From NCBI RefSeq assembly GCF_026683955.1, contig NZ_CP113343.1, forward strand, positions 1,178,001 through 1,242,000: a DNA stretch of 64,000 nt, in the 5' to 3' direction. Shown in pieces: positions 7,614 through 34,853 of this stretch. The stretch comes from Arthrobacter sp. MMS18-M83 (GTDB taxonomy: Bacteria; Actinomycetota; Actinomycetes; Actinomycetales; Micrococcaceae). Below the pieces are notes generated by a model. The model was not told where the DNA came from and searched no databases. It saw nothing but the letters and a program-made list of their open reading frames with translations. The translations under genes were made by a program, and so were the position numbers. Numbering within the stretch: the stretch's first letter is position 1; each line of letters opens with the position of its first letter.

Positions 7614-7657
7614 TAGTACCACTCGTTTTTGTTGGGAAAGACGGGTAGCACCACTCG
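7614..7657 (+). promoter_or_regulatory. Direct repeats and shared 12-base motif upstream of the surface-protein operon
   Basis: Two imperfect copies of TAG(T/C)ACCACTCGTT start at 7614 and 7646, exactly 32 bases apart. Between and over them lies AAAGACGGGTAG (7637-7648), then CACC and ACTCG (7653-7657). The same 12 bases with ACTCG 5 bases on occur, in the same orientation to the downstream gene, before the minus-strand operons starting at 29287 and 34501. This is a candidate operator or activator site, about 140 bases before the ATG at 7790. Confidence 0.55.
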
Positions 7658-7670
7658 TTGTTAGTTAAAG

Positions 7671-7772
7671 ACTGCCCATGCCAGCATTTGGTCATCAAAT
7701 GAATGGGCAGTCCAAGCAGGATTGGTATTTCCGAATTCCTTGCCGCCGTCGCCTATTCCGGGGAATACCAAT
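7671..7772 (+). promoter_or_regulatory. Two consecutive hairpins in the leader of the surface-protein operon
   Basis: The first inverted repeat has outer arms ACTGCCCAT (7671-7679) and ATGGGCAGT (7703-7711) with an inner stem CATTTG/CAAATG (7685-7701). The second has arms ATTGGTATT (7721-7729) and AATACCAAT (7764-7772) and ends 3 bases before the AAGGAG ribosome site. Both lie between the shared motif and the start codon. They could be operators or RNA structures that affect translation of the first gene. Confidence 0.5.
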
Positions 7773-7789
7773 TAACAAGGAGTCTCACC

Positions 7790-8272
7790 ATGCGTAAATT
7801 GAGCAAAAAGGGAAAAGTATACGCGGTAGCAGCATCCGTTGCGCTCGTAGCGGCAAGCGGCGGAGCAGCCTTCGCATACTGGACCAACACCGGTAGCGGT
7901 GTCGCCTCCGGAGCAACAGGCACAAATCTCCCGATCACTGTCGTGCAGACCAGCTCCGTCACCGATCTAAAGCCGGGCGGCGCACCTCAGGTCTTGAGCG
8001 GCAACTTCAACAACGGCAACACCAGCCCGGTTTATGTTGCCAGCGTGACGGCAAGCATCGCGAGCGTCACCCAGGCCGCTGGTGCAGTCGGGGCCTGCGA
8101 CGCGACCGACTTCACCCTCGCCTCACCGACAGTGACCGTCGCCCACGAAGTGGCCAGCGGTACGGGTGTGGGCAGTTGGGGCGGTGCGACGCTCGCGTTC
8201 AACGACAAGCCCGGCACCAACCAGGACGGCTGCAAGGGCGCCACCGTCAACCTCACCTACACCAGCAACTAG
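7790..8272 (+). CDS. TasA/CalY-like exported protein with SipW-type signal
   Basis: A 160-residue secreted protein. The N-terminus MRKLSKKGK is followed by a hydrophobic stretch ending GGAAFAYWTNTG, which is the signal type processed by SipW-like peptidases in TasA/CalY proteins. The mature part is Thr/Ser/Val-rich and predicted to be all beta. It holds two cysteines, in CDATDF and in NQDGCKGA, that recur in the next two genes and may pair. The ATG at 7790 was chosen because AAGGAG sits 8 bases upstream and the signal peptide starts there; an upstream ATG at 7703 lies in the leader. It is the first gene of a four-gene surface operon. Fibre formation is an inference. Confidence 0.75.
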   Translation: MRKLSKKGKVYAVAASVALVAASGGAAFAYWTNTGSGVASGATGTNLPITVVQTSSVTDLKPGGAPQVLSGNFNNGNTSPVYVASVTASIASVTQAAGAVGACDATDFTLASPTVTVAHEVASGTGVGSWGGATLAFNDKPGTNQDGCKGATVNLTYTSN

Positions 8273-8278
8273 CCATTG

Positions 8279-8308
8279 AGCTGGTGGGCCCGCAACGGCC
8301 CACCAGCT
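8279..8308 (+). terminator. Hairpin between first and second surface genes
   Basis: A perfect 12-base stem AGCTGGTGGGCC / GGCCCACCAGCT with a 6-base loop lies directly after the stop codon at 8272. No T-tract follows. It may be a partial terminator or an mRNA-stabilising end that raises the amount of the first gene product over the rest of the operon. Confidence 0.7.
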
Positions 8309-8354
8309 TGTGCTGTCCTAACAGAGACGCAGAACAAACCCAGAGGAGGAACCG

Positions 8355-9200
8355 GTGCCACGCATTCCGGAGTTATTCCGATCGCCGATCCGCACCGTTC
8401 GCACGGGAGCCAAAATGCTCCTGGCAGGCCTCCTTTTGACGATCCTCACATCGGGCGTCGTGCTTGCCGCCGGTACTAATGGCAACGGCAACCAAAACCC
8501 GCCAAAAGGCATCACGCTGCAGCTTGCACCCACCAGCAGGTCCGTCACACAGGGAACCTCGGCAAGCTACAACGTCATGGTCCAGCCCACAGGCGGGTTT
8601 GCTGGCAACGTCTCACTGTCAATCTCGGGACTGCCGGCAGGCGCCACGGCAGCGTTTTCGCCTGCAGTCCTCGCCCCCGGGCCAGGGTCGGCGTCAGCGG
8701 ACCTCAACGTCTCCACTACATCCGCCACACCTCTTGGAACCTACTCCCTGAGCCTCAAGGGCACCAGCGGGACGGTACAGTCCGCCGTCGTCGTCGTTTC
8801 CTTGACGGTGACCGCCGGGCAGCACCAACCGTTCACCATCTCAGGCGGTCCCGCCGGACTCCTGACGCCAGGCTCGGCCGTGTCGATTGATCTTCAGTTG
8901 GCAAACCCTGGTAATTCCAGCCTCAACGTCACCGGCCTGACTGTTTCGGTCACGGGAGTTACCCGGACCGCACAAGCCGTGGCGAACAACCGGCCCTGCA
9001 ATCCTTCGGACTACGTCATCACCCAATTCAGCGGCAGTTATCCGATCTCTGCCCCGCCAGGCAATTCCTCGCTCTCGACGAGCGGCATCCCGGCGGCTCG
9101 GTGGCCACAGATAAGAATGCTGGACACCTCGCTCAACCAGGACGGTTGCAAAGGCGCAACCATCCAGCTTTCCTACTCCGGAACGGGACAGGGCAACTGA
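8355..9200 (+). CDS. Exported Ig-like protein with TasA-like C-terminal segment
   Basis: A 281-residue secreted protein. It starts with GTG at 8355, chosen because GAGGAGGA lies 5 bases upstream. Signal segment: residues about 15-38, ending LAAG. Residues about 48-155 form a bacterial Ig-like beta-sandwich (ITLQLAPTS... to ...VVSLTV). Residues about 160-281 resemble the mature part of the gene before, with matching cysteine contexts CNPSDY and LNQDGCKGA. It therefore looks like an Ig domain fused to the same two-cysteine module. Likely attached to or assembled at the cell surface; the partner is unknown. Confidence 0.7.
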   Translation: MPRIPELFRSPIRTVRTGAKMLLAGLLLTILTSGVVLAAGTNGNGNQNPPKGITLQLAPTSRSVTQGTSASYNVMVQPTGGFAGNVSLSISGLPAGATAAFSPAVLAPGPGSASADLNVSTTSATPLGTYSLSLKGTSGTVQSAVVVVSLTVTAGQHQPFTISGGPAGLLTPGSAVSIDLQLANPGNSSLNVTGLTVSVTGVTRTAQAVANNRPCNPSDYVITQFSGSYPISAPPGNSSLSTSGIPAARWPQIRMLDTSLNQDGCKGATIQLSYSGTGQGN

Positions 9201-9201
9201 A

Positions 9202-9726
9202 ATGCGGGCAGCTGACATGAAAGCGAACAGGTGGATGAAGACCGGCTCCTTGGCGGCAGCCAAAGCGGCCGTGACGGCTGCCCTGCTGAGCCTGTTGTTG
9301 GGAGTCGGATCGGCCTACGCCTATTGGTCAACCATCGGGATCGGCAGCGGCTCGGCCGCCAACGGCACCATGCAGACGGTGACCGTGGACGCTTTGGTGG
9401 CCGGTGACAGTCCCGCAACCACCCTTGTCCCGGGAGGTACCGCGGACGTCATCGTGCGGGCGAGCAATCCAAATGCCTTCACGGTGCAGGTGTACAGTTT
9501 CACCGCCAACGGAGCCGCTACCGCGGATTCATCCCACCCGCTGTGCACCACCACGGGCGTGACGTTCAACGCCCCGGCCGCGCCTCTCACGCCGACGGTG
9601 TCCATACCAGCGAACACTTCCGTTCTGATCACCCTGCCCGCAGCCGCATCGATGTCGACGGCTTCGCAATCCAGCTGCCAGGGCGCCGTATTCCACCTTC
9701 CAGTGACGATGGCGGTCCGCAAATGA
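9202..9726 (+). CDS. Exported protein with SipW-type signal
   Basis: A 174-residue secreted protein. The hydrophobic segment at residues 18-40 ends SAYAYWST, the same Ala-Tyr-Trp cleavage context as the first gene of the operon. The mature part is a short beta-rich domain with two cysteines, in LCTTTGV and SSCQGAVF, that match the spacing pattern of the two upstream proteins. The first ATG (9202) lies one base after the previous stop; an ATG at 9217 is an alternative and leaves the signal intact. Its stop overlaps the next ATG (ATGA). Probably a minor subunit or cap of the same surface structure. Confidence 0.7.
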   Translation: MRAADMKANRWMKTGSLAAAKAAVTAALLSLLLGVGSAYAYWSTIGIGSGSAANGTMQTVTVDALVAGDSPATTLVPGGTADVIVRASNPNAFTVQVYSFTANGAATADSSHPLCTTTGVTFNAPAAPLTPTVSIPANTSVLITLPAAASMSTASQSSCQGAVFHLPVTMAVRK

Positions 9727-11246
9727 ACAGGCCCAAGCACTCTGCAGGACTCGGATCCAGGTATGCACTCCGCCGTCGCGTGACGTGGACGCTATTGGCA
9801 GTCCTGTTCATTTCCTGGGGCGGCCCGGCGGCCAGCGCCTTCTGGCAATCGCTGAGCAGCAGCAATTTCGGCGCGGCCAAAGCAGACACCATGCCGCAGG
9901 GCGGCGCTCCGGTGGCCTCACTGAACGGTACAAATACCACGGTCAACTGGGCGGCCGTGGCCACACCGGGCGGACACGCAGTAGCGGGCTACACCGTGGC
10001 CCGCTACTCGTCGCCCTCCGGCGGTACCAAAATCGCCGCTGGAGGAGGCTGCGCAGGAACGGTGTCCGGCCTCAGCTGCGTAGAACAAAACCTGCCCGGC
10101 GGGACCTGGTATTACACAGTCACACCAGTCATCTCTTTGTGGACAGGTGCGGAGAGTGTACGGAGCGCAGGCGTAACTGTTGATACGACTCCGCCCACCG
10201 TCGGCGTGACTTCAATTTCCCCGGCGCCGAATGGCGCGGGCTTCAACCGCACCAGTACTGTCACCGTCAACCTCGCCGCCGTTGACAATACAGGCGGTTC
10301 CGGTGTTGCAAACATCAAGTACTCGGTCGACGGCGGCACCACTGTGACGGTCAACGCGGCCACAGCCGCGGTGAATGTCAGCGGCGGCGACGGCACCCAC
10401 ACGGTGTCCTACTTCGCCACGGACGTCGCGGGGAACGCCAGCACACCGCAGACCCAAACCGTCAAGATCGATACCATTTTGCCCGTCGTCGGGGTCACCT
10501 CAATCTCGCCAACGCCAAACTCCCGGGGCTATTACGCCACCAGCCCGGTGACAGTGAACCTCGGTGCGACGGACGTCGGCGGTTCGGGCGTAGCATCCAT
10601 CACCTACCAGGTGGACACCGGCACCCAAGTCACCGTCGCCGGCGCAACCGCCTCCGTGAGCGTCACGGGGGAGGCCGCCCACAACATTTCCTACTTCGCT
10701 ACCGATGCGGCCGGCAACTCCAGTGGCAGCCAAACGCAGGCCATAGCCATCGACTTTCCCCCGACGGTCAGCTCCGTTACCTTAGGCAGCGGCGGCGCCA
10801 CCGCAAAGAAGGCCGACGCGGGAGACACGCTCACCATCGTCTTTTCGACGGACATGGACCCACACACTCTGTGCAGCGGCTGGAACTCCTCGTCCCCCAA
10901 CCAGACCGTGGACGGGACCGCTAGTATCGGCACGGACGAAGTACTGAGATTCACCAGCACGGGCAGCACAACCTGCACGGCACCGTCATTCGGCAGCGTG
11001 GCCCTTGTCGCCGTCTACAACACCAGCACCACGTCGCCCCTGAACTTCACAGCGTCCACCATGGCCTGGACCCAGTCCACCGGGACACTTGTCATCACCC
11101 TCGGCGGGAGCGCTTCGGGGGGCGGTGTCGCAGGAACGAACGTCCAACAGAAAACGCCGACCTACACCCCCTCGTCAGGCGCTGCGGATAAGGCAGGCAA
11201 CCCTCTGACCGGGACCTTCACGGCTAGCTCTCCCTCGAAGTTCTGA
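9723..11246 (+). CDS. Large exported protein with repeated Ig-like (OmpL47-type) domains
   Basis: A 507-residue secreted protein. The start is the ATG at 9723 that overlaps the previous stop; the frame extends upstream but only as shadow. The signal segment (residues 20-40) ends ASAFWQS. Residues about 50-135 are fibronectin-III-like. Two tandem repeats of about 95 residues follow (about 140-235 and 238-330), each with VGVTSISP, a GGSGVA turn and SYFATDVAGN, the pattern of OmpL47-type or Ig-like adhesion domains. The last 170 residues form another beta-rich domain. No sortase motif is visible. The likely role is adhesion or surface scaffold; the substrate is unknown. Confidence 0.7.
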   Translation: MNRPKHSAGLGSRYALRRRVTWTLLAVLFISWGGPAASAFWQSLSSSNFGAAKADTMPQGGAPVASLNGTNTTVNWAAVATPGGHAVAGYTVARYSSPSGGTKIAAGGGCAGTVSGLSCVEQNLPGGTWYYTVTPVISLWTGAESVRSAGVTVDTTPPTVGVTSISPAPNGAGFNRTSTVTVNLAAVDNTGGSGVANIKYSVDGGTTVTVNAATAAVNVSGGDGTHTVSYFATDVAGNASTPQTQTVKIDTILPVVGVTSISPTPNSRGYYATSPVTVNLGATDVGGSGVASITYQVDTGTQVTVAGATASVSVTGEAAHNISYFATDAAGNSSGSQTQAIAIDFPPTVSSVTLGSGGATAKKADAGDTLTIVFSTDMDPHTLCSGWNSSSPNQTVDGTASIGTDEVLRFTSTGSTTCTAPSFGSVALVAVYNTSTTSPLNFTASTMAWTQSTGTLVITLGGSASGGGVAGTNVQQKTPTYTPSSGAADKAGNPLTGTFTASSPSKF

Positions 11247-11255
11247 GATCCACCG

Positions 11256-12062: not shown

Positions 12063-12066
12063 CGCT

Positions 12067-15771: not shown

Positions 15772-15875
15772 GGATGGCACTCCTCGGAAGAGGGAAGTCG
15801 GATGGGGGAAGGCAACACGAAAACCCGAAATTCTCTCGAATCCCGGGGCGTTCCTAGCCTACCTCGCCCACACCG

Positions 15876-15881
15876 TAGGAT
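15876..15881 (+). promoter_or_regulatory. Candidate -10 box for the DUF2505 gene
   Basis: TAGGAT at 15876-15881 lies about 50 bases before the ATG at 15931, in the divergent gap between mfd and the DUF2505 gene. It matches the actinobacterial TANNNT -10 pattern. The -35 region is poor. Confidence 0.35.
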
Positions 15882-15930
15882 GTTTGGGAGCCGCAAGAGC
15901 TTTCAACCGAGATATTCACGGAGGACCCCC

Positions 15931-16428: not shown

Positions 16429-16429
16429 C

Positions 16430-16651: not shown

Positions 16652-16684
16652 CGCCCCTCCGAGCCCAACTAGCTCGCATTTGTT

Positions 16685-22142: not shown

Positions 22143-24827
22143 CTACTCCTCCGGCTTCGCCAACTCGTCCCATAGCTCCGAGAGCTTCTGCCGGCGTGAG
22201 ACGCCGAGCTTCCCGTAAACCCGCTGAAGGTGCGCATTGACAGTATTTACCGCGATACCCAAACGAGCGGCCACCTCCGCGCTGCTCAACCCGGAGGCGA
22301 CCAAGGCAGTCACCTCGCGTTCGCGCTGGGAGAGCTTGACGATCCCTGGAAGAATAGAGGACCTGGACTCCGGACCTTCCAGTCCGAGTTCGTCGTGAGC
22401 AAACACGTCCTCTTGGTCAAAAGCCCGGTCTTGTTGCGGCGCACCCGTGCTCGCTTCTTCTTCTTCTGCACCCAGCCCTGGTCCGTGTCCCATTTCCTGT
22501 CCTCCTTCCTGTCCTGGCTGCCCTCCGGGCTCGACACTCCACACAACCTCGGACACCCCTGGACCCATCTGCCGGTAGCCTCGGCTGCCGGTACGCGCGG
22601 CCAAGCCCAGGTTCAGCATTTCGAGTGCCCGGTGTCCCTTCTTTGCAGCCGAACCCGCAAGTTGAAGGAGCTTCCTGTGTGAATGTTCCGCACCAATCAG
22701 CACTGACCGTGCTGCGGATGAATAGCTTTCAGCGAGCTGCGATGCCAGGTAATTTCCTGAACTGCGGCGCGAATCGTAGGCCGCCAGGGCGCGACGCACC
22801 TGGTTGACATCTCCCAGCAGCCAGGCAGCTGCGGCAAGTCCACCGAGGGCCGGTGGCAGAAGCCCCTCAGGATCAGCTTCGTCCAGCCGGGCCTTGGCCT
22901 GGCGGAACTGTTCACAAGCCAGTTCCAAGCTCCCCTGCCTGGCGAGCACCAGCGCCCTGTAAAGGTGGGCAGCCCCGCCGAAATAGCTCATCCGGTTGCT
23001 GTAGCTGGAACTGCCGACGCAGAACATTTCGGAGCCGCCCCATTGCCCGCGCCAGATCAAATTCGATCCGTGGATGGTCAAGACGGCGGAGAGGAAGTCC
23101 ACAGGGCACCGGGGCAGCCTCCCCAAAGCTTCGAGGGCCGACGTCGAGAGAGCGACGGCGTCCGAGAACCTCCCGCTGACGGCGAGCCCTTGGGAGACAA
23201 GCGCCATCAAAAGCACCGCGGCCTGGGTAGGCGGTGGCGGATGGTTCTCCGAACGCAGTCCAGGGTCGATCAATTGGCCACGGCAAAGCCTCTGGAACAG
23301 CTCGCTACCGGCCGAAGGCCAGCTTCCGTTCTGCGCATCCAGATACAGCTGGAGGACGTCCAGTTCGTCCCGGACGGCCGTCTGGCCTAGATAGGCCGGC
23401 TCGCCCGGCTGGACCCCGACGGCGGCAGTCTCCAGCCGCCGTCGGGCATCCTGTAGAACCGACTGCAGCACATTTGCCCCCGGCGAAGTCGGCATGAGGG
23501 CACGCAGCAGGAGCCACACGGCGTGGGCGAAGTCCGCGGTCAAGACGTCAGGGGTGTTCGCGACCAAACCTTTCAGGACCGTGACAGCCCCGGGGAAATC
23601 CCTAGCGTGATACAGGGCCCTTGCCAGCTCCACTCTTGCGACCAGCCCGAGTTCCGGTGCCCGCACCGCATCCGCAGACCGCCGGGCCCGCCCGTTATCG
23701 TGAATGTCGTTCGCCGCAATCGCCACGGCCAGAAGGTCAGCGTCGGCTACCGGCAATCGGCTTTCCTGTTCGAGCTCCACCCGGCGGAACAGCGTCCAGA
23801 GCGAGTCATCCGCAACCGGTATGGAGATCTTGTAGATGCTTCGCCGAAGTTCCAAGATCCGGGCTGGCCCCAGCTGCTGCCGGGCGAGCCTCCCTTCGTT
23901 CGCGTGGCTGAGGGAAGCCGTCTCCTGGTTGTCTTTCTGGACACGGACCGTGCCGTCACCCGTGAGTGCTTCCATGGCCCGCTTTTGGCCAAGCTGTTCG
24001 AGGATGGCCATCGGTATCGGCTCCCCCGCCGCCAAAAGGTCCACAACCTGACGCTGCGGCACGGAATATCCCTCAAGTCGGTGCCGGGTCAGCTCAAGCG
24101 CCTGCGAACCATCCGGGCGGATCGGTCCGGACAGCATCCAGGAATCAGCCTGCTCCACGATCTCGCCACGCGCTGCGGCTTCGTCCAAGAGCAACTTCGC
24201 GGCCTGCAGGTTTCCTCCGGTGGCGGCATGGATGTCCCGGACCAGGCTCCGCGCGGCGTGCCCTCCGAGACGGTCATCGAGGAACTCGCGAAGCTGGTCC
24301 TGGGTGAGATCGTCCAGGGTCACCACCGAAAGCTGCCGCGAAACGACGGATTCCATCAGTTCCATTCTCAGCGGCCGGTCTGAGCGGTGGGTCGCGATCA
24401 TGCGGATGTCGGGATCACCAAGGAGCTGGCTCAAGAGCCAAAGGGACATGTCGTCCAGAAAATCGATGTTGTCCAGCACCAGCAGGGCAGAGGATCCGGG
24501 TGTGGAAACGCTGCGCACCGCTTTGCGGCAAGCCGCCACGATGGAACCCGGCCACACCTTGGAGCTGGCTGGCAGGTCCGGAACAAGGGCCATGGCGATT
24601 CCAAACGGGATGTCCGCGAACGACTCGGACACGTTGCGGGCGATCACGCTGAACGACCCGCGAAGCACTGAAGCCGCTGCGTCCAAGAGGGTAGTCATTC
24701 CCGAGCCGCTCGGGCCTGAGATGACGATCCCTGCTGGTTCCGGCCCTGACAAGGCAATGACAATCTCTTGAAGCTCTGCTGCCCGAATAATCGGGGGCGA
24801 GGTGTGGGTCCCTTCAGTATCGTCCAT
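22143..24827 (-). CDS. Giant LuxR-family (LAL) regulator with altered Walker A
   Basis: An 894-residue LAL/MalT-type regulator. N-terminal P-loop domain: the Walker A reads GPSGSGMTT, with Met where Lys is expected, and Walker B is ALLVLDNIDFLDD. A long helical, TPR-like middle follows. Before the HTH there is an unusual stretch of about 60 residues rich in Gly, Glu, Gln and Pro. The C-terminal LuxR HTH (about residues 830-890) reads LSQREREV, SSAEVAARLGIAVNTVNAHLQRVYGKLGV. The recognition helix NTVNAHLQ differs from the RTVEGHLY of the four paralogues at 34983-46117. ATP use is doubtful with this P-loop. It forms the left edge of the exopolysaccharide island and points towards sufS. Confidence 0.85.
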   Translation of the reverse strand: MDDTEGTHTSPPIIRAAELQEIVIALSGPEPAGIVISGPSGSGMTTLLDAAASVLRGSFSVIARNVSESFADIPFGIAMALVPDLPASSKVWPGSIVAACRKAVRSVSTPGSSALLVLDNIDFLDDMSLWLLSQLLGDPDIRMIATHRSDRPLRMELMESVVSRQLSVVTLDDLTQDQLREFLDDRLGGHAARSLVRDIHAATGGNLQAAKLLLDEAAARGEIVEQADSWMLSGPIRPDGSQALELTRHRLEGYSVPQRQVVDLLAAGEPIPMAILEQLGQKRAMEALTGDGTVRVQKDNQETASLSHANEGRLARQQLGPARILELRRSIYKISIPVADDSLWTLFRRVELEQESRLPVADADLLAVAIAANDIHDNGRARRSADAVRAPELGLVARVELARALYHARDFPGAVTVLKGLVANTPDVLTADFAHAVWLLLRALMPTSPGANVLQSVLQDARRRLETAAVGVQPGEPAYLGQTAVRDELDVLQLYLDAQNGSWPSAGSELFQRLCRGQLIDPGLRSENHPPPPTQAAVLLMALVSQGLAVSGRFSDAVALSTSALEALGRLPRCPVDFLSAVLTIHGSNLIWRGQWGGSEMFCVGSSSYSNRMSYFGGAAHLYRALVLARQGSLELACEQFRQAKARLDEADPEGLLPPALGGLAAAAWLLGDVNQVRRALAAYDSRRSSGNYLASQLAESYSSAARSVLIGAEHSHRKLLQLAGSAAKKGHRALEMLNLGLAARTGSRGYRQMGPGVSEVVWSVEPGGQPGQEGGQEMGHGPGLGAEEEEASTGAPQQDRAFDQEDVFAHDELGLEGPESRSSILPGIVKLSQREREVTALVASGLSSAEVAARLGIAVNTVNAHLQRVYGKLGVSRRQKLSELWDELAKPEE

Positions 24828-25258
24828 GGTCCTGTCTTATCTTCGGGCCGCCGGACACGCGTTCCTGACGGCCGCGGCACGGACCGGTGTCATTTCAAAA
24901 CGTTACCCGCGGGTTTCTGTCCTGGATTGAGTGGTAACTACTTGGTTTTCCAGGGCCACTTGCACCACATCCAGGGGCTCCACGCAGGCTTGCGAAGGGG
25001 AACCTTTGCCCGGCTTTCGAGGCCGGATGTATAGCCCCTGTTACCGTCCTGTGATCTGACTGTGTAAGCTGGTGCCGCAAGAGTAAGTTCTGGCTGGCTA
25101 CTTCTGGGGAGTCGAAGCGCAGCCTTTTTTCACAACAACTCTGTCGCCACACACCATTTGGCCGTGTACGACCCTGCGGCATTTTTTGCCTGCAGATCGC
25201 CCTACCGGTTGCCTAGGTCTCGTATGTCTATGTCCCCAACAGATATGTCACCCAAAAT
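24828..25258. other. 431-base divergent intergenic region
   Basis: Lies between the minus-strand LAL gene and the plus-strand secreted-protein gene, so it should hold both promoters. AT content rises towards the plus-strand gene. A TTACCCGCGGG stretch at 24902 contains a weak match to the TACYCGT half-site described elsewhere. I see no convincing gene, terminator or full copy of the 12-base shared motif. Confidence 0.5.
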
Positions 25259-26344: not shown

Positions 26345-26363
26345 GGAACAACCCGCTTCCACG

Positions 26364-26403: not shown

Positions 26404-26419
26404 TATCCCTGGAACGGGT

Positions 26420-26464: not shown

Positions 26465-26501
26465 GCGTGTCCAGGACTTGTCACCTCGGCGGTCAGTAGC
26501 C

Positions 26502-27881
26502 CTAGCCGACCCTTGCCACCGGCGATCCGGCCGCCCCCATTTCCTGGGACGGGCGTTGGATCCTTCGAACCGGGCTGACCCAAACTCCCGACGAACGTGA
26601 CGAGTACGCCCTCGGCAATACCTGGAGGCAAATGATTGCATCCAGGATCCGCATCAGGGGAAACAGGGGAGCCATCAGCAAGAGGCGCGGGCTACGCATC
26701 GAGACGGCGGCAAGGATTGTCAGGAAGAAGTCCGGCAGGAAGACTCCGATGAGAACGTCCTGGGGCCGCAGGACACCTGATAGGAAGACGAATATCTCAG
26801 ATCGATCGCCAAAGATCCAGACCTCGACGGCGGCGACGAACGATAGCAGGAAAGCCGGCACCAGCAGCACCAAGAAAAGGGAACTGGCTACGAGCTCAAC
26901 AATGTATAGCCCAAGGACGAACCAGAATCTGCTGAACTTCAGGCCGTGCCGCCTGACCGTCTGCCAGAAGCCGAGGATCCACCGCCTCACCTGCTTGACG
27001 TAGTCCTTAAGATTGTCCGGATCCTGCGTGTACGCGACAGCCGCGGACGGATGGAATGCGATCCGTCCCAGCTTCTTCGCATGGATTTCAAAGGTCATGT
27101 TGAAGTCTTCAATCACCAGTCCCGGCGCCAGGACCTCTATTTTGCTGAGCGCGCTGGTTCTGTACATGCTGGCAAATCCCGGAACGATCGAAACGACATT
27201 GGCGCCCCGTGCTGCTTGGCCGTATTTGAGCAGCAGTTGGACCACGATGTACAAGCGCTCCCGGTAGGCCACCAGGAAGCGGCCAATCGCCGTCGGAGAT
27301 TGCGGACTCATGATTGACTTGGCGCGTCCCGCGACTGCGACCACGGTGGGATCGGAAAACAGCGGCAGCCCCGTTTCGAGATAGTCCGGGGCCGGGCGGG
27401 TGTCCGCGTCCAGAAGCATGACCACCTTGAACCGCTTGCACAGATCGAAATGGGCGATTCCCGCCGCGAGCGCGCCTGCCTTACCCCGGTTCGGTTCAAG
27501 CTCCAGCACTTTTACCCCTGCGGACCGCGCAATGGCTGCGGTGTCGTCAGTGGACATGTCCGAGACGACGTGGATGTTGCGTCGAGGGACCAAAGCGGAC
27601 GCGGCAAGGATTGTCTCTTTGATGACGAGCGCCTCATTATGGGCGGCTACGAGGACTGCGACATTCGAAGGGTAGATTCGGACTCCCTTTGAACGATGAC
27701 GGCCCCGCTGACGCTGAGGGATCGGCGCCTTGCCGCCACGCAGCGAGGCGATCCACCCACGGACCCGGTAGGACAATCCGCGAGCCCGCCACGACTCCTC
27801 ACCTGCGAGACGTACCAGCCCGGCGAGGGACCAGAAAATCGTGCTGACCCCCAGAACCAAAAGGATCGAAAGAACTATCAC
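26502..27881 (-). CDS. Processive family 2 glycosyltransferase (PgaC/IcaA/hyaluronan synthase type)
   Basis: A 459-residue membrane synthase. An N-terminal membrane helix (residues 1-22) is followed by the GT2 domain: VAVLVAAHNEA at about 75, the DxD in MLLDADTRP at about 155, the acceptor motif VIEDFNMTFE at about 255 and QVRRW at about 305, then three or four C-terminal membrane helices. This set is the mark of processive beta-glycan synthases that polymerise and export in one step, such as poly-N-acetylglucosamine synthase. Its ATG overlaps the deacetylase stop (ATGA), the pairing seen in ica/pga loci. The exact sugar is not certain. Confidence 0.85.
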   Translation of the reverse strand: MIVLSILLVLGVSTIFWSLAGLVRLAGEESWRARGLSYRVRGWIASLRGGKAPIPQRQRGRHRSKGVRIYPSNVAVLVAAHNEALVIKETILAASALVPRRNIHVVSDMSTDDTAAIARSAGVKVLELEPNRGKAGALAAGIAHFDLCKRFKVVMLLDADTRPAPDYLETGLPLFSDPTVVAVAGRAKSIMSPQSPTAIGRFLVAYRERLYIVVQLLLKYGQAARGANVVSIVPGFASMYRTSALSKIEVLAPGLVIEDFNMTFEIHAKKLGRIAFHPSAAVAYTQDPDNLKDYVKQVRRWILGFWQTVRRHGLKFSRFWFVLGLYIVELVASSLFLVLLVPAFLLSFVAAVEVWIFGDRSEIFVFLSGVLRPQDVLIGVFLPDFFLTILAAVSMRSPRLLLMAPLFPLMRILDAIICLQVLPRAYSSRSSGVWVSPVRRIQRPSQEMGAAGSPVARVG

Positions 27882-29287
27882 GGCGACGGAGCTCCCACTG
27901 TGTCGTACATTTCGTAATCATCGGTAGCAAGCTGGCCATCGCTGAAGAGGTTCAATCCAAAGCTGAGGGCCTCGGCTCCTGCCGGAACGGGTGGCGTTTC
28001 CCAGATTGCCTGCTCGTAACTGGTGTTGGCCGCAAACCAGGGACTGGCCGTCCAGTACGTCCACGTGCCCAGCTTGTTGCGGTAATACACTTCGAACTGC
28101 GTCTTCGCAGTGGACTGGTACCACGCCCGGAGCGAATAGCTGTGGCCGGTACCCACGCTCGGGGCACATGCCCCGAGATCGAGGACGGGAAGCAATTTGG
28201 CGTCACCAGACGAATATTCGCTCACGTCCAGACGACGGGCCACCGCACCAGTGTGGCCCGGGGTCAATGTGCTGAGTACTGCAGCGTTCTTGCCGTAGGA
28301 CGAAACCTGCCAGCATTGCGGTAGGCCATACTTTCCCGCGATTTCCAGCCCCGGATTCAGGATGGCGTTCTTGCCTGGTGCGGCGGGTGCGGCCACCGGA
28401 CCGTTCACCACTGATTTCGCCACGCCACCGATTACGTCATGTACCGTGCGCACGGCCATGGTCCCTTGTTGGGTCTTGGCCGCCAACCAGGTGGCGAACT
28501 GTTCGAACAGCGCGGGACTGACGGAGCGGGGACTACCGCTGTTGTCAATGTCGTAGAAGGTCAGCTGTAACCAGCCCCCGGCCTTTTCGGCCTGCACTAC
28601 TGTCTCCTCTAGGTCGGCCAACGTCCAGTTGCTGCCGACCTCCGATGTTGCGCGCGTCCGGAAGACGTCGGCGGGGCGGACAGTCTCTGCTGCAGCGCAA
28701 CCCACGCAGTCAACGGGCGTGTTTATCTCGCCGAGACCTCGCGCGCTGTTGTAGCCGCATCCAGCAACGAGCTCCTCCGACTTGGCCGTTGAAGCCGCAA
28801 ACGGATAGGCAAAGGACGTGACCTTAAAGCCCCAATCCGTGAGGTTCACTCGATCGTTGCAAATCTGCCTCGACGCTTCGTCCGGTTCCACCGAAGTCAC
28901 ATCGGCAAGAGTGATTGTGTGGCCACCGATCTCATTTTGATTAGTGGCCAGACTGTGGAGATTCTCGATCGTCATGAAACCGGGTGCGCCCACAAATCCT
29001 GAATCGATGAAGAAAGTGCCCCGGAGGCCGTGGTCCTTGAGGATCCGGGCGGCCTCCATCTGGTTTGCCCGGCCTGAATCAAACGTCAGGCTGACAGAAG
29101 AAAGCGGGGCGGCTGAAGCCGTGGGGTCAGGCTGGGAGGAGTCAACCGGAGTCTGGCTTCCTTTGAGCAGCGACGTTGCGCCCGTCAACAGGAGCAACAC
29201 TGAGACCCACGAGACGGCCCACAGGCCTACCCGTTTCCTGGACGTCCGGACCGGACCGGACGCGAAGTCCTTCCCCCCGGAGCTCAT
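27878..29287 (-). CDS. Exported NodB-type polysaccharide deacetylase lacking two metal ligands
   Basis: A 469-residue protein with a membrane anchor or signal at residues 20-42, a NodB domain (about 62-300) and a C-terminal beta-sandwich (about 310-469). The NodB fold is clear: SLTFD at residue 66, RGTFFIDSGFV at 89, EIGGHT at 119, FAYPFA at about 155. Motif 1, however, reads TFDSG instead of TFDDG, and motif 2 reads HTITL instead of H-x3-H, so the second Asp and second His that bind the metal are replaced (Ser71, Leu127). It may be inactive or bind its glycan without cutting. The partner synthase follows with ATGA overlap. Confidence 0.8.
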   Translation of the reverse strand: MSSGGKDFASGPVRTSRKRVGLWAVSWVSVLLLLTGATSLLKGSQTPVDSSQPDPTASAAPLSSVSLTFDSGRANQMEAARILKDHGLRGTFFIDSGFVGAPGFMTIENLHSLATNQNEIGGHTITLADVTSVEPDEASRQICNDRVNLTDWGFKVTSFAYPFAASTAKSEELVAGCGYNSARGLGEINTPVDCVGCAAAETVRPADVFRTRATSEVGSNWTLADLEETVVQAEKAGGWLQLTFYDIDNSGSPRSVSPALFEQFATWLAAKTQQGTMAVRTVHDVIGGVAKSVVNGPVAAPAAPGKNAILNPGLEIAGKYGLPQCWQVSSYGKNAAVLSTLTPGHTGAVARRLDVSEYSSGDAKLLPVLDLGACAPSVGTGHSYSLRAWYQSTAKTQFEVYYRNKLGTWTYWTASPWFAANTSYEQAIWETPPVPAGAEALSFGLNLFSDGQLATDDYEMYDTVGAPSP

Positions 29288-29553
29288 CGCCGAGCCTCAG
29301 CGAGTAGGTTCCTGAAGGGGCCGGTGGCGACTGGGGGAAGCCTCGGTCTCAAAGGCTTATTCACCACCGGCCCCCGCTCAGGGGCCCTCTCTATGAGGGC
29401 GCGCTGCCAGGAGGCAACGCCATCAATTGGCGATGGATCGTTGGGAGGGAACGCGCTGGAACCCTCGAGGACTGACTCGAATCCGAGGCAATCGCCTTCT
29501 CGGATCAACCCGTTGGGTCCTGATGCCGCTCGGACCAGAGCGTCCTTTTCCAT
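29284..29553 (-). CDS. Possible small upstream gene coupled to the deacetylase
   Basis: An open frame of 89 residues beginning MEKDALVRA. Its stop overlaps the deacetylase ATG in ATGA, and it lies between the shared 12-base motif (29639-29650) and the deacetylase. Another ATG-like start exists at 29589. It has no signal peptide and no known family; it is Pro/Arg-rich near its end. A similar small frame occupies the same place before the dehydrogenase at 34501. It could be a real small protein, a leader peptide, or the deacetylase mRNA leader only. Confidence 0.35.
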   Translation of the reverse strand: MEKDALVRAASGPNGLIREGDCLGFESVLEGSSAFPPNDPSPIDGVASWQRALIERAPERGPVVNKPLRPRLPPVATGPFRNLLAEARR

Positions 29554-29628
29554 TTTGAGACCTGTCTCTCCCCCGTTGCCCTCAACCAACCGACACCATC
29601 AGCCTATGGAGTCGGCAGACGACGGACA

Positions 29629-29650
29629 CGAGTACGCTCTACCCGTCTTT
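29629..29650 (-). promoter_or_regulatory. Shared motif upstream of the deacetylase/synthase operon
   Basis: On the minus strand the 12 bases AAAGACGGGTAG (29650-29639) are followed after 5 bases by ACTCG (29633-29629). Read as ACGGGTA and TACTCGT it is a near-perfect dyad with a 5-base spacer. It lies 352 bases before the deacetylase start and 86 bases before the small upstream frame. It could also serve the plus-strand GH18 gene. Confidence 0.55.
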
Positions 29651-29801
29651 ACACTCAACCTTTGGCTTCTGAACAACGCGACTACTCGTGCGCCACGTAC
29701 CGGATCCGCCGGATCAAACACCAATCCGGAAGCACGGGCGAATCCGATATGTTCGTGGTCAAATGGTGCATCAAAGCAGTTATCAAGGATGGCGGAAGAG
29801 A

Positions 29802-30965: not shown

Positions 30966-31171
30966 GCCTGCCGCTCAACACCTGCCGCCCAAACAAAGGT
31001 TCAGACCAGGCCAGGATGTTCCGTTCCGGCCCTGTTTTTGGCTTCGGCCGGGCGGGCAAGGTGCCGGCCGTTACCGCGCCTGAAAAGCCTCTTAAGCCAT
31101 TCCATGGATACCTCCAGTTTTCAAGGGATTGTTAGAGGGATTGCCCGGACCTGATTGTTTCGGACCGCCCG

Positions 31172-31188
31172 GGCCAGGCCGCCTGGCC
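31172..31188 (-). terminator. Hairpin at the end of the dehydrogenase operon
   Basis: GGCCAGG (31172-31178) and CCTGGCC (31182-31188) pair with a 3-base loop, directly at the stop codon of the minus-strand secreted-protein gene. The rest of the 222-base gap to the GH18 gene shows no gene. Confidence 0.5.
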
Positions 31189-31958
31189 TACTTCACTTGG
31201 CTGACCGTGACGATGTCCAGCCACGGCCCCGACGGAACCTGGTCCCGAGGCACGAACTGCCAATCGACTTTGTCCGATTCACCGTCGAGCTCGGAAAAGC
31301 CGAGACACCCATTGAGCGCCGGCGAGACGTCCATGCCGGCCCCGTTGAACTTTGTGTTGACAGGCCGGGCGTCTTTGGAGCCAAAAACGTAGTTCTTGTC
31401 GTGGTATTGGCCGGGGCCGGCGTCTTCGATCTGCCCGTAGCATTCATGGCCGCCCTTGCGGATCCTGACCCACTGGTTCTTCATGTAACTGAAGGAGCGG
31501 TTCTTCTCATTGCCCGCAAAGCCAGGGTCGTTGGCCCATGGAATCACACTGGCTCGTTCGGCAAAAGCTGTGGCATCGTTGACGTCGTCATAGGGAAGAT
31601 CCAGGTAAAACGGGTTCTCCTTCGGAGTCATGTTGGTCGGCGCAAACCCCTTGGCCTGCGTTCTCGCCTCGGTAGTGCAGCCGTTCTTGATGACACCGTC
31701 ACAGCCTCCATAGCTCTGCATCCACTGGGAGTCGTAAGTGGACGTCACCTGGCTGCCATCAGCCGCCTTGGGGTCGAAGATCTCCCCTACCCAAAAGGTT
31801 GTTGCCACGATTCCCGTGTGCCACGGGAATCGCCCGGCGGCCGTGGATAAGGGACTCGGCCCCGGGGCCGGCCCAGTGCACGCTGCAGTCAGCAGGGCCA
31901 GGACCGCAGCCACTCCAGCGAGACCAGGGCGCCCGGGTCCGGATCCTGAGGGATTCAC
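31188..31958 (-). CDS. Lipoprotein with probable double-psi beta-barrel C-terminus (copy B)
   Basis: A 256-residue lipoprotein related to the protein at 25259-26344. Lipobox LTAAC at about residue 23. The conserved domain carries FWVGEIFD, YGGCDG, ENPFYLDLPYDDVND, CYGQIEDAGPG, FNGAGMDVSPALNGCLGF and VDWQFV...GPW. The start is GTG at 31958, because AGGAG lies 6 bases upstream and the signal follows at once; the long frame upstream is not coding. It lacks the Pro/Ala linker of copy A. It is last in the dehydrogenase-epimerase operon, about 120 bases after the epimerase. A cell-surface glycan-binding role is inferred. Confidence 0.75.
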   Translation of the reverse strand: MNPSGSGPGRPGLAGVAAVLALLTAACTGPAPGPSPLSTAAGRFPWHTGIVATTFWVGEIFDPKAADGSQVTSTYDSQWMQSYGGCDGVIKNGCTTEARTQAKGFAPTNMTPKENPFYLDLPYDDVNDATAFAERASVIPWANDPGFAGNEKNRSFSYMKNQWVRIRKGGHECYGQIEDAGPGQYHDKNYVFGSKDARPVNTKFNGAGMDVSPALNGCLGFSELDGESDKVDWQFVPRDQVPSGPWLDIVTVSQVK

Positions 31959-32079
31959 ATCGTGCTCCTGGGAGTGGGTTCGGGAGGTCGTTCGTCTGAC
32001 GCGGGCGGGCGGCCGGTTAGCGGATCCTCCACCTACCCGGCCACCTGTCCATACGATGTAGGCAATCTTGCTCCCTCGC

Positions 32080-33084
32080 TCAAGAGGCCAGGGTGACCTT
32101 CCAACCCGAAGGATCCAGGACTTTCGCCGGCTTGTAGTCGGCGGCGACGTTAAGGATGATTTCATCGAGGGTAGTCTTCGGGTTGAAGCCAACAAGCTCG
32201 CGGGACCTGCTGTTGTCCGGAACGCGCCGGCGCATGTCCTCGTACCCCTCGGAGTAGGCCTCCTCATAGGGAACCAGGGTGATGGGACTTTCGCTCCCCA
32301 GGAGTTCAACGATCCGTTGGGCCAGTGTCAGAATGGAAATCTCGTAGCTCCCACCGAGGTTGAACGCATTCCCATAGGCCAGCGGTTCCTCGGAAATACG
32401 GGCGATGGCAGGAACGATATCACCGACGTAGGAGAAGCACCTCGTCTGCTGGCCGTCTCCGTACACCGTCAGAGGTTCACCGACGAGCGCCTGCCGCACA
32501 AGTCGCGGGACAACCATTCCATACCGGCCTGTCTGGCGAGGTCCTACCGTGTTGAAGAGCCGCACGATAGCAACTGGCAAGCCGAATTGGCGCCAGTATG
32601 CATGCGCAAACGCCTCGTCAATGCCTTTCGCCGCAGCATAAGTCCACCTCGACTTGAGCGCAGATCCAAGGATGCGGTCCGCCTCCTCCGAAAGGCTGTC
32701 CGAAGTGTTCTTGCCGTAGATCTCGCTGGTGGATGCCAGCAGCAGCGAGGCACCCGACTCCAGGACAGAGTCCAGGACCACTTCCGTGCCATGGATATTC
32801 GTGCGGAGGCTCTCTAGAGGGTGGTCCACAATCAGATTCACGCCGACGGCGGCCGCCAGGTGGAAGACCCTGTCGGCACCGGCAACAACTTTGTCCACGG
32901 CGTCCCGGTCGAGAATGGTGCCCTCCACGAAGTGGAAGTTCCTGTGGCCGATCACGCCCTTGAGATTCTCGAGGCGTCCCGTAGACAAGTTGTCCAAGAC
33001 CGCTACTTCGTCGCCGGCCGCCAACAGATACTCAACGAGGTGGCTGCCGATGAATCCGGCACCGCCGGTTATTGCTGTTTTCAT
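32080..33084 (-). CDS. NAD-dependent nucleotide-sugar epimerase/decarboxylase
   Basis: A 334-residue extended SDR enzyme. The NAD loop GGAGFIGSH is at residues 7-15, the catalytic Tyr and Lys are in YAAAKG at about 149-154, with Ser/Thr in STSEIYG at about 118. TVYGDGQQTRCFSYV at about 205 is typical of UDP-glucuronate decarboxylase and UDP-sugar 4-epimerases. It acts in the cytoplasm to make a sugar precursor. The UDP-sugar dehydrogenase lies just upstream, so oxidation followed by epimerisation or decarboxylation is plausible; the product is not fixed by sequence alone. Confidence 0.85.
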   Translation of the reverse strand: MKTAITGGAGFIGSHLVEYLLAAGDEVAVLDNLSTGRLENLKGVIGHRNFHFVEGTILDRDAVDKVVAGADRVFHLAAAVGVNLIVDHPLESLRTNIHGTEVVLDSVLESGASLLLASTSEIYGKNTSDSLSEEADRILGSALKSRWTYAAAKGIDEAFAHAYWRQFGLPVAIVRLFNTVGPRQTGRYGMVVPRLVRQALVGEPLTVYGDGQQTRCFSYVGDIVPAIARISEEPLAYGNAFNLGGSYEISILTLAQRIVELLGSESPITLVPYEEAYSEGYEDMRRRVPDNSRSRELVGFNPKTTLDEIILNVAADYKPAKVLDPSGWKVTLAS

Positions 33085-33115
33085 TTCTCCTGCTTCCGTC
33101 TAAAACCTGGTGGAT

Positions 33116-34501
33116 CTAGAGCCGGGTTACGTTATCGGCTTTGGGCAAGCGGTACGTGGTGTCCAGGACTGCGGAGGCTCCGGCCAGCCAGTCAAGGTCC
33201 ATCTGGCTGTGCCTTGTGTGCAGGATCACCAAATCCGCCCCCCAGTCAGCAGGCGATTGCTCGGATTGGAGGGTTCCGCCATGGCCGTCGGGCGCCGTCT
33301 GGCACCAGGGATCGGAGTACGCGACTTCCGCTCCGTCGGCGATCAAGGCTGCGATGATCTCCAACGCCGGGGATTCCCGAAGATCTTCGACATCGGGCTT
33401 GTAGGCAACCCCGAGGACCATCACGCGCGCGCCGGCAACACCGTGGTTTCGGTCGGACAGGATGCGCCGGGCCTTTTCCACAACCTTGTGCGGCCTACCC
33501 GCAATTCCTGCCATAGCTTGTTCGATCACTGGCGCCGTCAAGCGGGCTTTGCGCAATTGCCACAGCAAGTAGTGAGGGTCGCAGGGGATGCAATGTCCGC
33601 CGACGCCGGGACCAGGTGTGAACGGCATGAATCCGTATGGCTTGGTGGAGGCCGCATCGATGACGTCCATGACTTCCATGTTGAGTTCATGGCAGATATC
33701 GGCGAACTCGTTCGCCAAGGCGATATTGACGGCCCGGAAGGTGTTTTCCACCAGCTTTGTCATTTCGGCGACGTCCGCCGACGGGACTACATGGACCAAC
33801 TTGGTGCTCGCGCTCAGAAGCCGCTCAGCAGCTTCACCGCAGGCCTGGGTCACACCGCCCACTACCCGGGGAACGTCTTCGTGTGAGAACGAGTCCACCC
33901 CGGGATTGATGCGTTCCGGCGAGAACGCGACAAACACGTCCCTGCCGGGGATGAGGCCCTTGGCAGCCAGCGGCAATGCCAGCAGGTCGCGCGTGGATCC
34001 CACATACGTTGTGGAGGTCAGCATCAACAGCTGGCCAGTGGTGGCAAAGTCGACCACGGAGGCGCAGGCAGCGCGGAGAATACCGAGATCCGGGACCAAA
34101 TACTCGTCAACCGGGGTCGGAACGCAAACAACCACGGCCGCCGCGCGGGCAAGCAATGATAAATCGCTGCTCAACATGAACGTCGGGTCCAAGAGTGCGT
34201 TGCTGAGCCGCTCCTTGTCGGAATCCAGAAGATCTGCCCGCTGCTCGCGGATTACGGCCAGCCGTGCATCGGACACATCCAGGCCCAGGACTCTGCGGCC
34301 GGAGGCGTTGATGGCCAAAGCCGTGGGCAGGCCCACGTAGCCCATGCCCACGATCGCCACGTCGAAAGTGAATGCCTGGTCCTGCGTGGTTGTGGCCTGG
34401 GTTACGCCTCCCTCCGGCCATGCCGGTGCCGGCGCGTGCACGGACTGAGAGTTCCCGTTGAGCGCTGTCTTGAGGGTCTTAACCTTCGTGTTCGGTGCCA
34501 T
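33116..34501 (-). CDS. UDP-sugar 6-dehydrogenase (WecC/WbpA type)
   Basis: A 461-residue enzyme of the UDP-glucose/UDP-ManNAc dehydrogenase family. NAD loop VGMGYVGLPTA at about residue 52, VCVPTPV at about 118, the lysine in MTKLVENTFRAVNIAL, and the catalytic cysteine in GGHCIPCDP at about 308. The long N-terminal extension (about 45 residues) is poorly conserved. It makes a uronic acid sugar, so the exported polymer may be acidic. The ATG at 34501 follows GGAGG by 10 bases and lies 2 bases after the stop of a small upstream frame. Confidence 0.88.
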   Translation of the reverse strand: MAPNTKVKTLKTALNGNSQSVHAPAPAWPEGGVTQATTTQDQAFTFDVAIVGMGYVGLPTALAINASGRRVLGLDVSDARLAVIREQRADLLDSDKERLSNALLDPTFMLSSDLSLLARAAAVVVCVPTPVDEYLVPDLGILRAACASVVDFATTGQLLMLTSTTYVGSTRDLLALPLAAKGLIPGRDVFVAFSPERINPGVDSFSHEDVPRVVGGVTQACGEAAERLLSASTKLVHVVPSADVAEMTKLVENTFRAVNIALANEFADICHELNMEVMDVIDAASTKPYGFMPFTPGPGVGGHCIPCDPHYLLWQLRKARLTAPVIEQAMAGIAGRPHKVVEKARRILSDRNHGVAGARVMVLGVAYKPDVEDLRESPALEIIAALIADGAEVAYSDPWCQTAPDGHGGTLQSEQSPADWGADLVILHTRHSQMDLDWLAGASAVLDTTYRLPKADNVTRL

Positions 34502-34503
34502 GG

Positions 34504-34713
34504 TCAGTCGACCTCCAGGTGCCTGATGTCTCCAGTGTGAATAAAAGCCGGCGACGAAACGGGATGTGCCCTGGTCTCAGAGGGCACGTGACCACCCGCC
34601 GCCGGCTCGCTTGTGGGGGTACCCGCCGAATGCGGGATACCGATCGCATCGGAGCTAATTTCTCGCCGGATTACCGGGTGGTCTTCCTGTAGCAAAGAAT
34701 TCTTCCTGCGTTT
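34504..34713 (-). CDS. Possible small upstream gene before the UDP-sugar dehydrogenase
   Basis: An open frame of 69 residues (MKRRKNSLLQEDHP...) ends 2 bases before the dehydrogenase ATG. It sits between the shared 12-base motif and the operon, as does the small frame at 29284-29553. The first codons follow GGTCTC in both cases. The peptide is hydrophilic and matches no family I know. It could be a true small protein or a translated leader that couples into the dehydrogenase. Confidence 0.35.
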   Translation of the reverse strand, partial: KRRKNSLLQEDHPVIRREISSDAIGIPHSAGTPTSEPAAGGHVPSETRAHPVSSPAFIHTGDIRHLEVD

Positions 34714-34793
34714 CATCTCGAGACCCACTTGTCCCCAATTGCGTGGCGGTTGCCATCAAGAAAGAGCGTATTAACTAACCCCTAGGGCGGGCG

Positions 34794-34853
34794 CGAGTGG
34801 GCTCTACCCGTCTTTGGACGCGCTGTGACGCCCGAATCCGCAGACTACCCGTC
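34794..34853 (-). promoter_or_regulatory. Shared motif upstream of the dehydrogenase/epimerase operon
   Basis: On the minus strand AAAGACGGGTAG (34815-34804) is followed after 5 bases by ACTCG (34798-34794). A second partial copy, GACGGGTAG, lies 30-40 bases upstream (34853-34845). A TTAGTTAA stretch follows further downstream, as it does after the copy at 7637. It lies about 300 bases before the dehydrogenase start. No coding frame is convincing between 34714 and 34982. Confidence 0.55.

Follow-up and report, generated by a model that had tools for sequence, protein, structure and literature searches.

An inverted-repeat promoter element with the core CGRGTA-N5-YACTCG recurs across a 64,000-nucleotide stretch of Arthrobacter sp. 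MMS18-M83 (here denoted the window), and it is probably the operator of LAL-type activators (STAND ATPase plus GerE) whose genes belong to the same cluster; LAL3-LAL2 are the likeliest candidates, with LAL4 and LAL5 as paralogues. The element precedes matrix-polysaccharide, surface-protein and regulator genes, and one circuit may thus control much of the outer coat. An earlier note had reported a 12-base motif, AAAGACGGGTAG, followed by ACTCG before three operons. The 12-mer is present exactly at 7637-7648 (plus strand), 29639-29650 (minus strand) and 34804-34815 (minus strand), with ACTCG 4 bases further on in the plus-strand copy and 5 bases further on in the two minus-strand copies (ends at 7657, 29629 and 34794), and all three copies face the operon downstream, as described. 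These three sites are all real, but they are not the only ones; the note had overlooked further copies before tasA (7610-7625), LAL1 (24928-24944) and LAL3 (40512-40528), as well as the upstream half-sites and the -10 described below.

The note had considered chance occurrence unlikely and had proposed a genome search, which bore this out. A whole-genome scan for GACGGGTAG-N3-6-ACTCG returned 3 matches in 5.11 Mb, all at the three promoters inside the window, and none for the reversed-pattern control. If all bases were equally frequent, chance would produce a given 12-mer about 0.6 times per 5.1 Mb genome (both strands) and about 0.008 times per 64 kb; allowing up to two mismatches, the 12-mer alone matched 7 times in the window, whereas shuffles gave 2.49 and a single one of 100 reached 7. 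Loosened motifs searched without the -10 were not enriched in the genome itself, CRRGTAG-N3-5-ACTCG giving 15 matches (4 in the window) against 19 in the control and ACGRGTA-N4,5-YACTCG giving 4 against 3, as would be expected if the copies reflected chance or simple common ancestry of duplicated promoters. We give that explanation next to no credence, because inclusion of the -10 (TANNNT) yielded 131 matches in 54 of 150 genus genomes against 1 control match, and because 42 representative sites sharing <62% identity over the promoter keep their phase and spacing. Without the -10, the strict motif matched 62 times in 32 of the 150 genomes against 25 for the control, some matches lying inside genes. 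Two loosened-motif matches outside the window, at 4464457 and 4740940 (both minus strand), are intergenic in the gene calls and are possible sites; a third, at 1064989, is also intergenic, yet has a near-copy elsewhere. Five GACGGGTAGGAGTACTCG matches recur at one sequence, and the three whose surroundings were checked (L035, L045, L052) fall within a gene and appear to be spurious.

The geometry identifies the motif, as read from sequence, as a promoter element, since the core ends where a -35 box would start. TANNNT lies 22-23 nt past the core in 24 of 25 dehydrogenase promoters of relatives. These 25 loci hold another 22 cores downstream of the dehydrogenase, and TANNNT follows all 22 at that distance as well; three of the loci (L100, which is incomplete, L105 and L106) have no such further core. 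Random positions satisfied this rule in 34 of 10,000 cases. A -10 at this distance would place the transcription start about 34-36 nt after the core. Upstream of the 42 representative sites we counted 66 half-sites in the same orientation, 51 of them in helical phase where 19 are expected, compared with 8 (2 in phase) in the opposite orientation and 8 (2 in phase) for a reversed pattern. These arrays extend over about seven helical turns. Columns outside the selection are conserved as well, with A at -3 in 38 of 42 sites and G two bases past ACTCG in 40 of 42. The fixed distance to a conserved TANNNT could also mean that the element is part of an alternative sigma factor promoter and not an operator, but the conserved block is a dyad situated upstream of the -35, the hexamer at the -35 position is poor and the half-sites are phased; we know of no sigma promoter that requires an upstream dyad or phased half-sites, and we regard this reading as very unlikely.

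Both polysaccharide operons are on the minus strand. The operator of the deacetylase/synthase operon, AAAGACGGGTAGAGCGTACTCG, occupies 29629-29650, with a predicted -10, TAGGCT, at 29601-29606 and an upstream half-site, CGAGTA, at 29683-29688, separated from the core by 43 bp, or four turns. The operon includes a polysaccharide deacetylase-like gene (27878-29287; PF01522) and a gene for a family-2 glycosyltransferase resembling polysaccharide synthases (26502-27881; PF13641, with TIGR03937 under its cut-off). In the UDP-sugar dehydrogenase operon the operator AAAGACGGGTAGAGCCCACTCG (34794-34815) is followed by a predicted -10, TACGCT (34765-34770), and preceded by half-sites spanning 34846-34885, namely CGGGTA (34846-34851), CGAGTG (34868-34873) and CGAGTA (34880-34885), at 41, 63 and 75 bp from the core; it encodes a nucleotide-sugar dehydrogenase (33116-34501; TIGR03026) and an NAD-dependent sugar epimerase/dehydratase (32080-33084). 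Among relatives, 25 of 41 loci have the core at the dehydrogenase promoter, the 41 being the 56 loci found minus the 15 most distant (L124-L138, 32-40% identity).

The element also precedes LAL genes, all on the minus strand and, by Pfam, with a C-terminal GerE domain and in most cases AAA domains. The LAL3-LAL2 promoter, CGAGTA-N5-TACTGG-N22-TTAATT (40484-40528), has half-sites at 40546-40551 and 40588-40593; in an alignment of the window with 11 hand-picked loci the core is present in 12 of 12 and TTAATT in 10 of 12. LAL3 (37660-40446) and LAL2 (34983-37663; its frame is broken in the window and is a single 893-aa frame in L091 and others) are the candidate regulators. LAL1, an AAA-type ATPase with GerE (22143-24827), has the promoter CAAGTA-N5-CACTCA-N22-TAACGT (24900-24944), and the same site was present in the one relative examined (L043). 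Because LAL4 (40660-43476) and LAL5 (43397-46117) share the recognition helix RTVEGHLY, for which we make no claim of specificity, the regulator could also be one of these paralogues; the LAL1 helix, NTVNAHL, differs.

Across the genus, sites were found in 42 of 57 genomes with a LAL3 relative (E<=1e-120) versus 12 of 93 others (Fisher 4e-14, a value that overstates independence, as many of the 150 genomes are close kin). Genomes with such a relative contain 119 of the 131 sites, and 15 of these 57 genomes have no strict match. As judged from these sequences, the link between the LAL genes and the element is an association. Inverted half-site pairs suit any GerE dimer, and the element might be the operator of another GerE-type regulator, for example a NarL-family response regulator encoded elsewhere, with the LAL genes merely travelling with the polysaccharide genes. 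Consistent with this, sites occur in 12 genomes that have no strong LAL3 relative (in 11 of them a weaker LAL relative is present at E<=1e-60, in G029 none), and L105 has the core with neither a -10 nor a LAL gene within 10 kb. Against it, the core stands in the LAL3-LAL2 promoter itself, the number of sites tracks LAL3 relatives, and half-site arrays of some seven turns suit a multimerising STAND protein; we consider this alternative improbable. From the co-occurrence and the sites in the LALs' own promoter we infer that LAL proteins bind the element. In agreement with this, the Curtobacterium/Herbiconiux clusters (L112-L115) have a LAL with a different recognition helix, RTVELRL, and lack a core upstream of the dehydrogenase.

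We propose that a LAL dimer would sit on the core CGRGTA-N5-YACTCG, its right half abutting the poor -35, and that more protomers would occupy half-sites of the same orientation that are displaced upstream by one or more helical turns. On induction the STAND protein would multimerise and recruit RNA polymerase to TANNNT. The regulon would comprise genes for matrix polysaccharide, genes for other exported proteins and, in a feedback loop, the LAL genes.

The tasA operon departs from this pattern. It contains a gene for a small exported protein (7790-8272, plus strand) that we take, from its look, to be TasA/camelysin-like, Pfam and NCBIfam having given no match for it, and further genes in the same direction (8355-11246; 8355-9200, 9202-9726 and 9543-11246). 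Its proximal operator, AAAGACGGGTAG-CACC-ACTCG (7637-7657, core CGGGTA-N4-CACTCG at 7642-7657), lies 32 bp, or three helical turns, downstream of a distal one, CAAGTA-N4-CACTCG (7610-7625). The dyad that had been proposed for the motif fits, except that the spacer at tasA is N4 and a -10 is missing from the standard position. Among nine chosen orthologues (six closest and three syntenic) the proximal operator is kept in 9 of 9, some with single-base departures, the distance between operators is 32-33, N4 spacing is found in 9 of 9 aligned promoters, and none of the nine has TANNNT in the 50 nt that follow the proximal operator. These last two features, together with an A/T-rich stretch kept a few bases past the operator, would suit repression of tasA by the same regulator, the proximal operator crowding the -10-like TTAGTTAAAG (7661-7670) and the cell switching from protein fibre to polysaccharide. 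Since the promoter scan showed no sigma-70-like site at TTAGTTAAAG (its sole result at tasA was an unconvincing site overlapping the start), and tandem sites are typical of activation too, repression seems to us a minority prospect. In a relaxed scan, 4 of the 30 tasA-like loci examined had a site, and the tasA site is thus a feature of a clade and not of all TasA-like genes. Two hairpins are predicted in the tasA leader (z -2.25; 6 of 200 shuffles were equally good).

The expectation that the motif would fall only before surface or polysaccharide genes was borne out in part. A domain scan of ten chosen downstream proteins placed 9 among extracellular or polysaccharide-acting kinds (BNR, YncE-type propeller (twice), galactose-oxidase-like, LysM, heparinase II/III-like, LGFP/PKD, FIMAH and cutinase/RCC1) and 1 among sugar-type oxidoreductases. 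Exclusivity is unsupported, because 7 of 20 sites in 19 fetched regions overlap an ORF by crude gene calls; some sites have no recognisable exported gene downstream. A signal-peptide heuristic was uninformative (20 of 40 downstream versus 171 of 441 background genes).

Both polysaccharide leaders contain a covarying RNA hairpin (model R1; 29313-29378, 74.2 bits, before the deacetylase and 34540-34611, 63.1 bits, before the dehydrogenase, both minus strand); all 150 genus genomes that were searched contain it. The element often occurs together with this RNA, of which stand-alone copies exist as well, for example at 3748-3813 of L215. An Rfam scan over the leader RNA gave nothing at the gathering score, and at E<=5 only matches far under it, such as mir-4667 and rydB; the hairpin thus represents a covarying RNA family without an Rfam match. 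Its loop, GAGACC, is complementary to GGUCUC ahead of start codons: GGTCTC stands directly before an ATG at 29557-29562 and 34720-34725 in the two leaders (minus strand), and the start of LAL3 was set at the ATG after such a GGTCTC. GTCTC followed by NTG within 7 nt was found in 24 of 49 site-driven leaders, whereas control stretches taken from further upstream had it in 3 of 49. For 33 chosen RNA copies, the 480 nt on the upstream side contained GTCTC-N1-9-ATG in 20 cases, against 1 for the reversed pentamer. The remaining copies speak against the pairing, 9 having GTCTC without a near ATG and 4 having no GTCTC, as does GGCCTC in place of GGTCTC in the dehydrogenase leaders of L093-L095. Loop and GGUCUC are otherwise nearly invariant, and covariation therefore lends the pairing no support. 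The leader RNA may be regulatory. Tentatively, and with more doubt than confidence, we envisage a two-layer circuit across the family, in which LALs would act via phased operator arrays and many transcripts would carry, or consist of, the new structured RNA, its loop pairing with GGUCUC before the start codons of leader ORFs, LAL3 and, less perfectly, tasA, thereby coupling matrix-gene transcription to translation of regulon and regulator.

LAL regulators are common in actinobacteria, and to our knowledge few of their operators are known. One report terms these regulators poorly studied (PMC3282765). The element offers a precise predicted LAL operator with a specified geometry and a defined set of genes under it, and with variants that occur naturally (N4 versus N5, differing recognition helices). 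It further hints that Arthrobacter-like soil bacteria have a matrix programme akin to the one in Bacillus. In Bacillus subtilis, eps and tapA-sipW-tasA are co-regulated by SinR/RemA; there, as perhaps here, one regulatory logic serves matrix polysaccharide and a TasA-like fibre, but regulators and DNA sites are unrelated, and with the identity of the fibre here putative the parallel is functional only.

Among LAL-related systems, PimR (SARP-LAL) is described as binding CGGCAAG via its SARP domain, without the C-terminal LuxR helix (PMC5930380). It resembles our candidates in its direct repeats one turn (11 bp) apart and in being a large ATPase regulator, and differs in that the window LALs have a GerE domain and the core found here is inverted and lies at the -35; the half-site is not that of the CGGCAAG repeats, and Pfam gave no match to a SARP-type domain in the window LALs. 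By analogy, the operators of MalT-type LAL regulators come closest in architecture among those known. E. coli MalT is reported to be a STAND activator that multimerises and binds cooperatively to several boxes (PMC4381067), as predicted here, where the phased same-orientation half-sites would supply the boxes; box sequence and arrangement differ, and five LAL genes lie in one region here. In Actinoplanes sp. SE50/110, the operator of MalT, also a LAL, is reported as TCATCC-N5-GGATGA, a repeat that covers the -35 and stops 34.4 +/- 1.0 nt short of the start site (PMC7567727), in a regional gene cluster enclosing two MalT-like LuxR genes. Inverted hexamers separated by N5 are found at both polysaccharide promoters and, with small departures, at LAL1 and LAL3, whereas tasA has N4, and the predicted -10 would imply a similar position here. 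The MalT half-site GGATGA / GGGGA(T/G)GAGG is absent from the element, whose half-sites are CGRGTA/YACTCG. In contrast to the maltose-responsive metabolic targets of the Actinoplanes protein, the element precedes genes for matrix and exported proteins and carries a phased upstream half-site array.

The three copies of the shared motif (7637-7657, 29650-29629 on the minus strand and 34815-34794 on the minus strand) lie exactly where the earlier note had placed them, before the operons of an exported protein, of the deacetylase/synthase and of the UDP-sugar dehydrogenase. The whole-genome search that it had called for, run here with GACGGGTAG-N3-6-ACTCG, found three matches in 5,112,324 bases, all inside the window, and the reversed pattern found none in the same bases. 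A search with the dehydrogenase retrieved 56 loci from relatives, 41 of which, with at least 57% identity, were analysed; the best-matching named relative is Arthrobacter sp. MI7-26 (97%). The aligned promoters share a block, AAAGACGGGTA-N5-YACTCG, followed by a conserved TANNNT. This inverted-repeat core is found upstream of the dehydrogenase in 25/41 loci (L083-L106 and L123), with TANNNT 22-23 nt past it in 24 of the 25, the exception being L105. TANNNT stands at the same distance in all 22 cores farther along these loci, which are deacetylase promoters wherever the gene context was inspected, and at 34 of 10,000 random positions. Since the hexamer after ACTCG (for example TGTCCG, TGCCGC or CGCCCG) occupies the predicted place of a -35 box, the dyad would lie directly next to that position, an arrangement known from class II activation. 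In several relatives the epimerase and the small secreted gene flank an additional deacetylase-like gene (653 aa in L033) that the window lacks (31188-33084 compared with L033 6583-10524).

The 161 instances in the fetched loci were reduced to 42 representatives whose promoters are less than 62% identical. These contain 66 half-sites (single hexamers of the core, C[GA][AG]GT[AG]) in the same orientation 8-80 bp upstream of the core, with peaks at 21-23, 41-44, 63-66 and 74-78 bp. Whole helical turns, defined as 21 of the 73 positions in this range, hold 51 of the 66 half-sites against 19 expected; the binomial value of 5e-16 is too small, because the representatives still include related promoters, but the phasing is plain nonetheless. 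Half-sites in the opposite orientation number eight, two of them in phase, and the reversed pattern gave the same counts.

The window encodes five large LuxR-type regulators (LAL1-LAL5) with GerE domains, most also with AAA-type domains. The recognition helix RTVEGHLY is common to LAL2-LAL5 and differs in LAL1. LAL3 and LAL2 adjoin, and the pair directly precedes the dehydrogenase operon. At 37130-37229 the LAL2 coding region breaks into two frames that overlap, while relatives have a single 893-aa frame; the break is either a sequencing error or a recent inactivation. In 23/25 site-bearing loci the upstream sequence contains LAL frames that end in GerE-type fashion and, by best match, include the LAL3-LAL2 pair or its nearest equivalent; L105 has the core with no LAL within 10 kb, and in L123 the core is accompanied by broken LAL frames. 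By the GerE-end rule the 16 analysed loci without the core have no LAL, L110 and L116 having little upstream sequence; L112-L115, among these 16, do carry LAL, with another recognition helix. Across 150 genus genomes, sites occur in 42/57 with a strong LAL3 relative vs 12/93 without (Fisher 4e-14). The LAL3-LAL2 promoter reads CGAGTA-N5-TACTGG in 12/12 aligned sequences (CGAGTA-N5-TACTCG in one), with a -10-like TTAATT 22 nt past the core in 10/12, and the LAL1 promoter reads CAAGTA-N5-CACTCA-N22-TAACGT. These sites suggest that these LAL genes are under feedback through operators in their own promoters.

Including the -10 element, CGGGTA-N5-YACTCG-N22,23-TANNNT gave 131 matches in 54/150 genus genomes and one in the control. 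Six are in the strain's own genome, two of them the polysaccharide promoters; the others, at 65410 (-), 929478 (-), 4958770 (+) and 4972229 (-), precede genes with BNR, YncE-type propeller, galactose-oxidase-like and YncE-type domains (domain scan). Six chosen proteins after sites of other genomes carry LysM, heparinase II/III-like, LGFP/PKD, FIMAH, sugar-oxidoreductase and cutinase/RCC1 domains. The site at 65410 overlaps another ORF in our own gene calls. Such genes do not follow every site: in the fetched regions 7/20 sites overlap an ORF of these crude calls, and two families of conserved sites, one in L190/L215/L216 and the other in L196/L217/L218, have no recognisable exported gene after them. 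In L040 (~3855, -), L042 (~3877, -) and L155 (~2907, +), after a second TasA-like operon, an operator and -10 element precede a stretch of ~130 nt ending in an inverted repeat, possibly a small RNA.

The site before tasA (7790-8272, +; a small exported TasA/camelysin-like protein, named from its appearance) is missing from the 131 matches because its spacer is N4. Both tasA operators have N4 spacers, lie 32-33 bp (three helical turns) apart and are kept in 9/9 chosen orthologues, in which no TANNNT was found within 50 nt past the proximal copy. The same regulator may act differently here, perhaps as a repressor. A relaxed scan of 30 tasA-like loci found the site in only four. The tasA leader (7668-7792) is predicted to fold into two strong hairpins, the first of which relatives preserve only in part.

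One folded RNA is shared by the leaders of the two polysaccharide operons (29313-29378 and 34540-34611, both minus strand). It has a long G+C-rich stem and an inner hairpin; the loop is UGAGACC in most copies, and many also have CCCCAG on the 3' side. Among 18 diverse copies, two-sided changes occur at 14/20 pairs, and 94.7% of pairing cells pair vs 30-57% when slid. A larger set of 71 matches, which give 57 distinct rows, are fitted to the model and include six weak reverse-strand matches, showed two-sided changes at 14/20 pairs and 96.5% vs 35-59%. Rfam at its thresholds has no family matching this RNA. A search with the model at E<=0.001 gave one or more copies in 150/150 genus genomes, each genome's best at 1.2e-9 or lower, and matches, some weak, in 91/194 family genomes from 17/32 genera. 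The core lies within 480 nt upstream of 24/33 chosen copies (reversed pattern, none), also in another genus (L141). Of the genus copies the 30 best were fetched; 16 of them adjoin a LAL gene, and those whose placement was read lie downstream of it. Copies of this covarying hairpin family that begin right at a site promoter (L190/L207/L215 and L191; for example L215 3748-3813, -, and L191 1550-1619, +) may be small RNAs. The GAGACC of the loop is complementary to GGTCTC, which stands a few bases before ATG in both leaders (29557-29562 and 34720-34725, minus strand) and at LAL3 (40451-40456, -); at tasA the start codon is preceded in this way by AGTCTC (7781-7786, +). GTCTC-N1-7-NTG occurs in 24/49 site-driven leaders vs 3/49 control stretches. 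We hypothesise from this complementarity that the loop pairs with GGTCTC before start codons.

A search of the openly accessible Arthrobacter literature on LuxR/LAL regulators, exopolysaccharide, TasA and small or structured RNA found no description of the element or the RNA, and the accessible text of an Arthrobacter luxR paper (PMC9659744) mentions no such site. A multimerising STAND activator would fit best, for which we infer binding, activation and an inducer. E. coli MalT is reported to form multimers once induced and to bind cooperatively to its boxes (PMC4381067), and the site bound by Actinoplanes MalT is TCATCC-N5-GGATGA, with a 3' end that lies 34.4 +/- 1.0 nt upstream of the transcription start (PMC7567727). 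The half-site described here differs from that of MalT, so the element is not a MalT box, though it is proposed to work like one.
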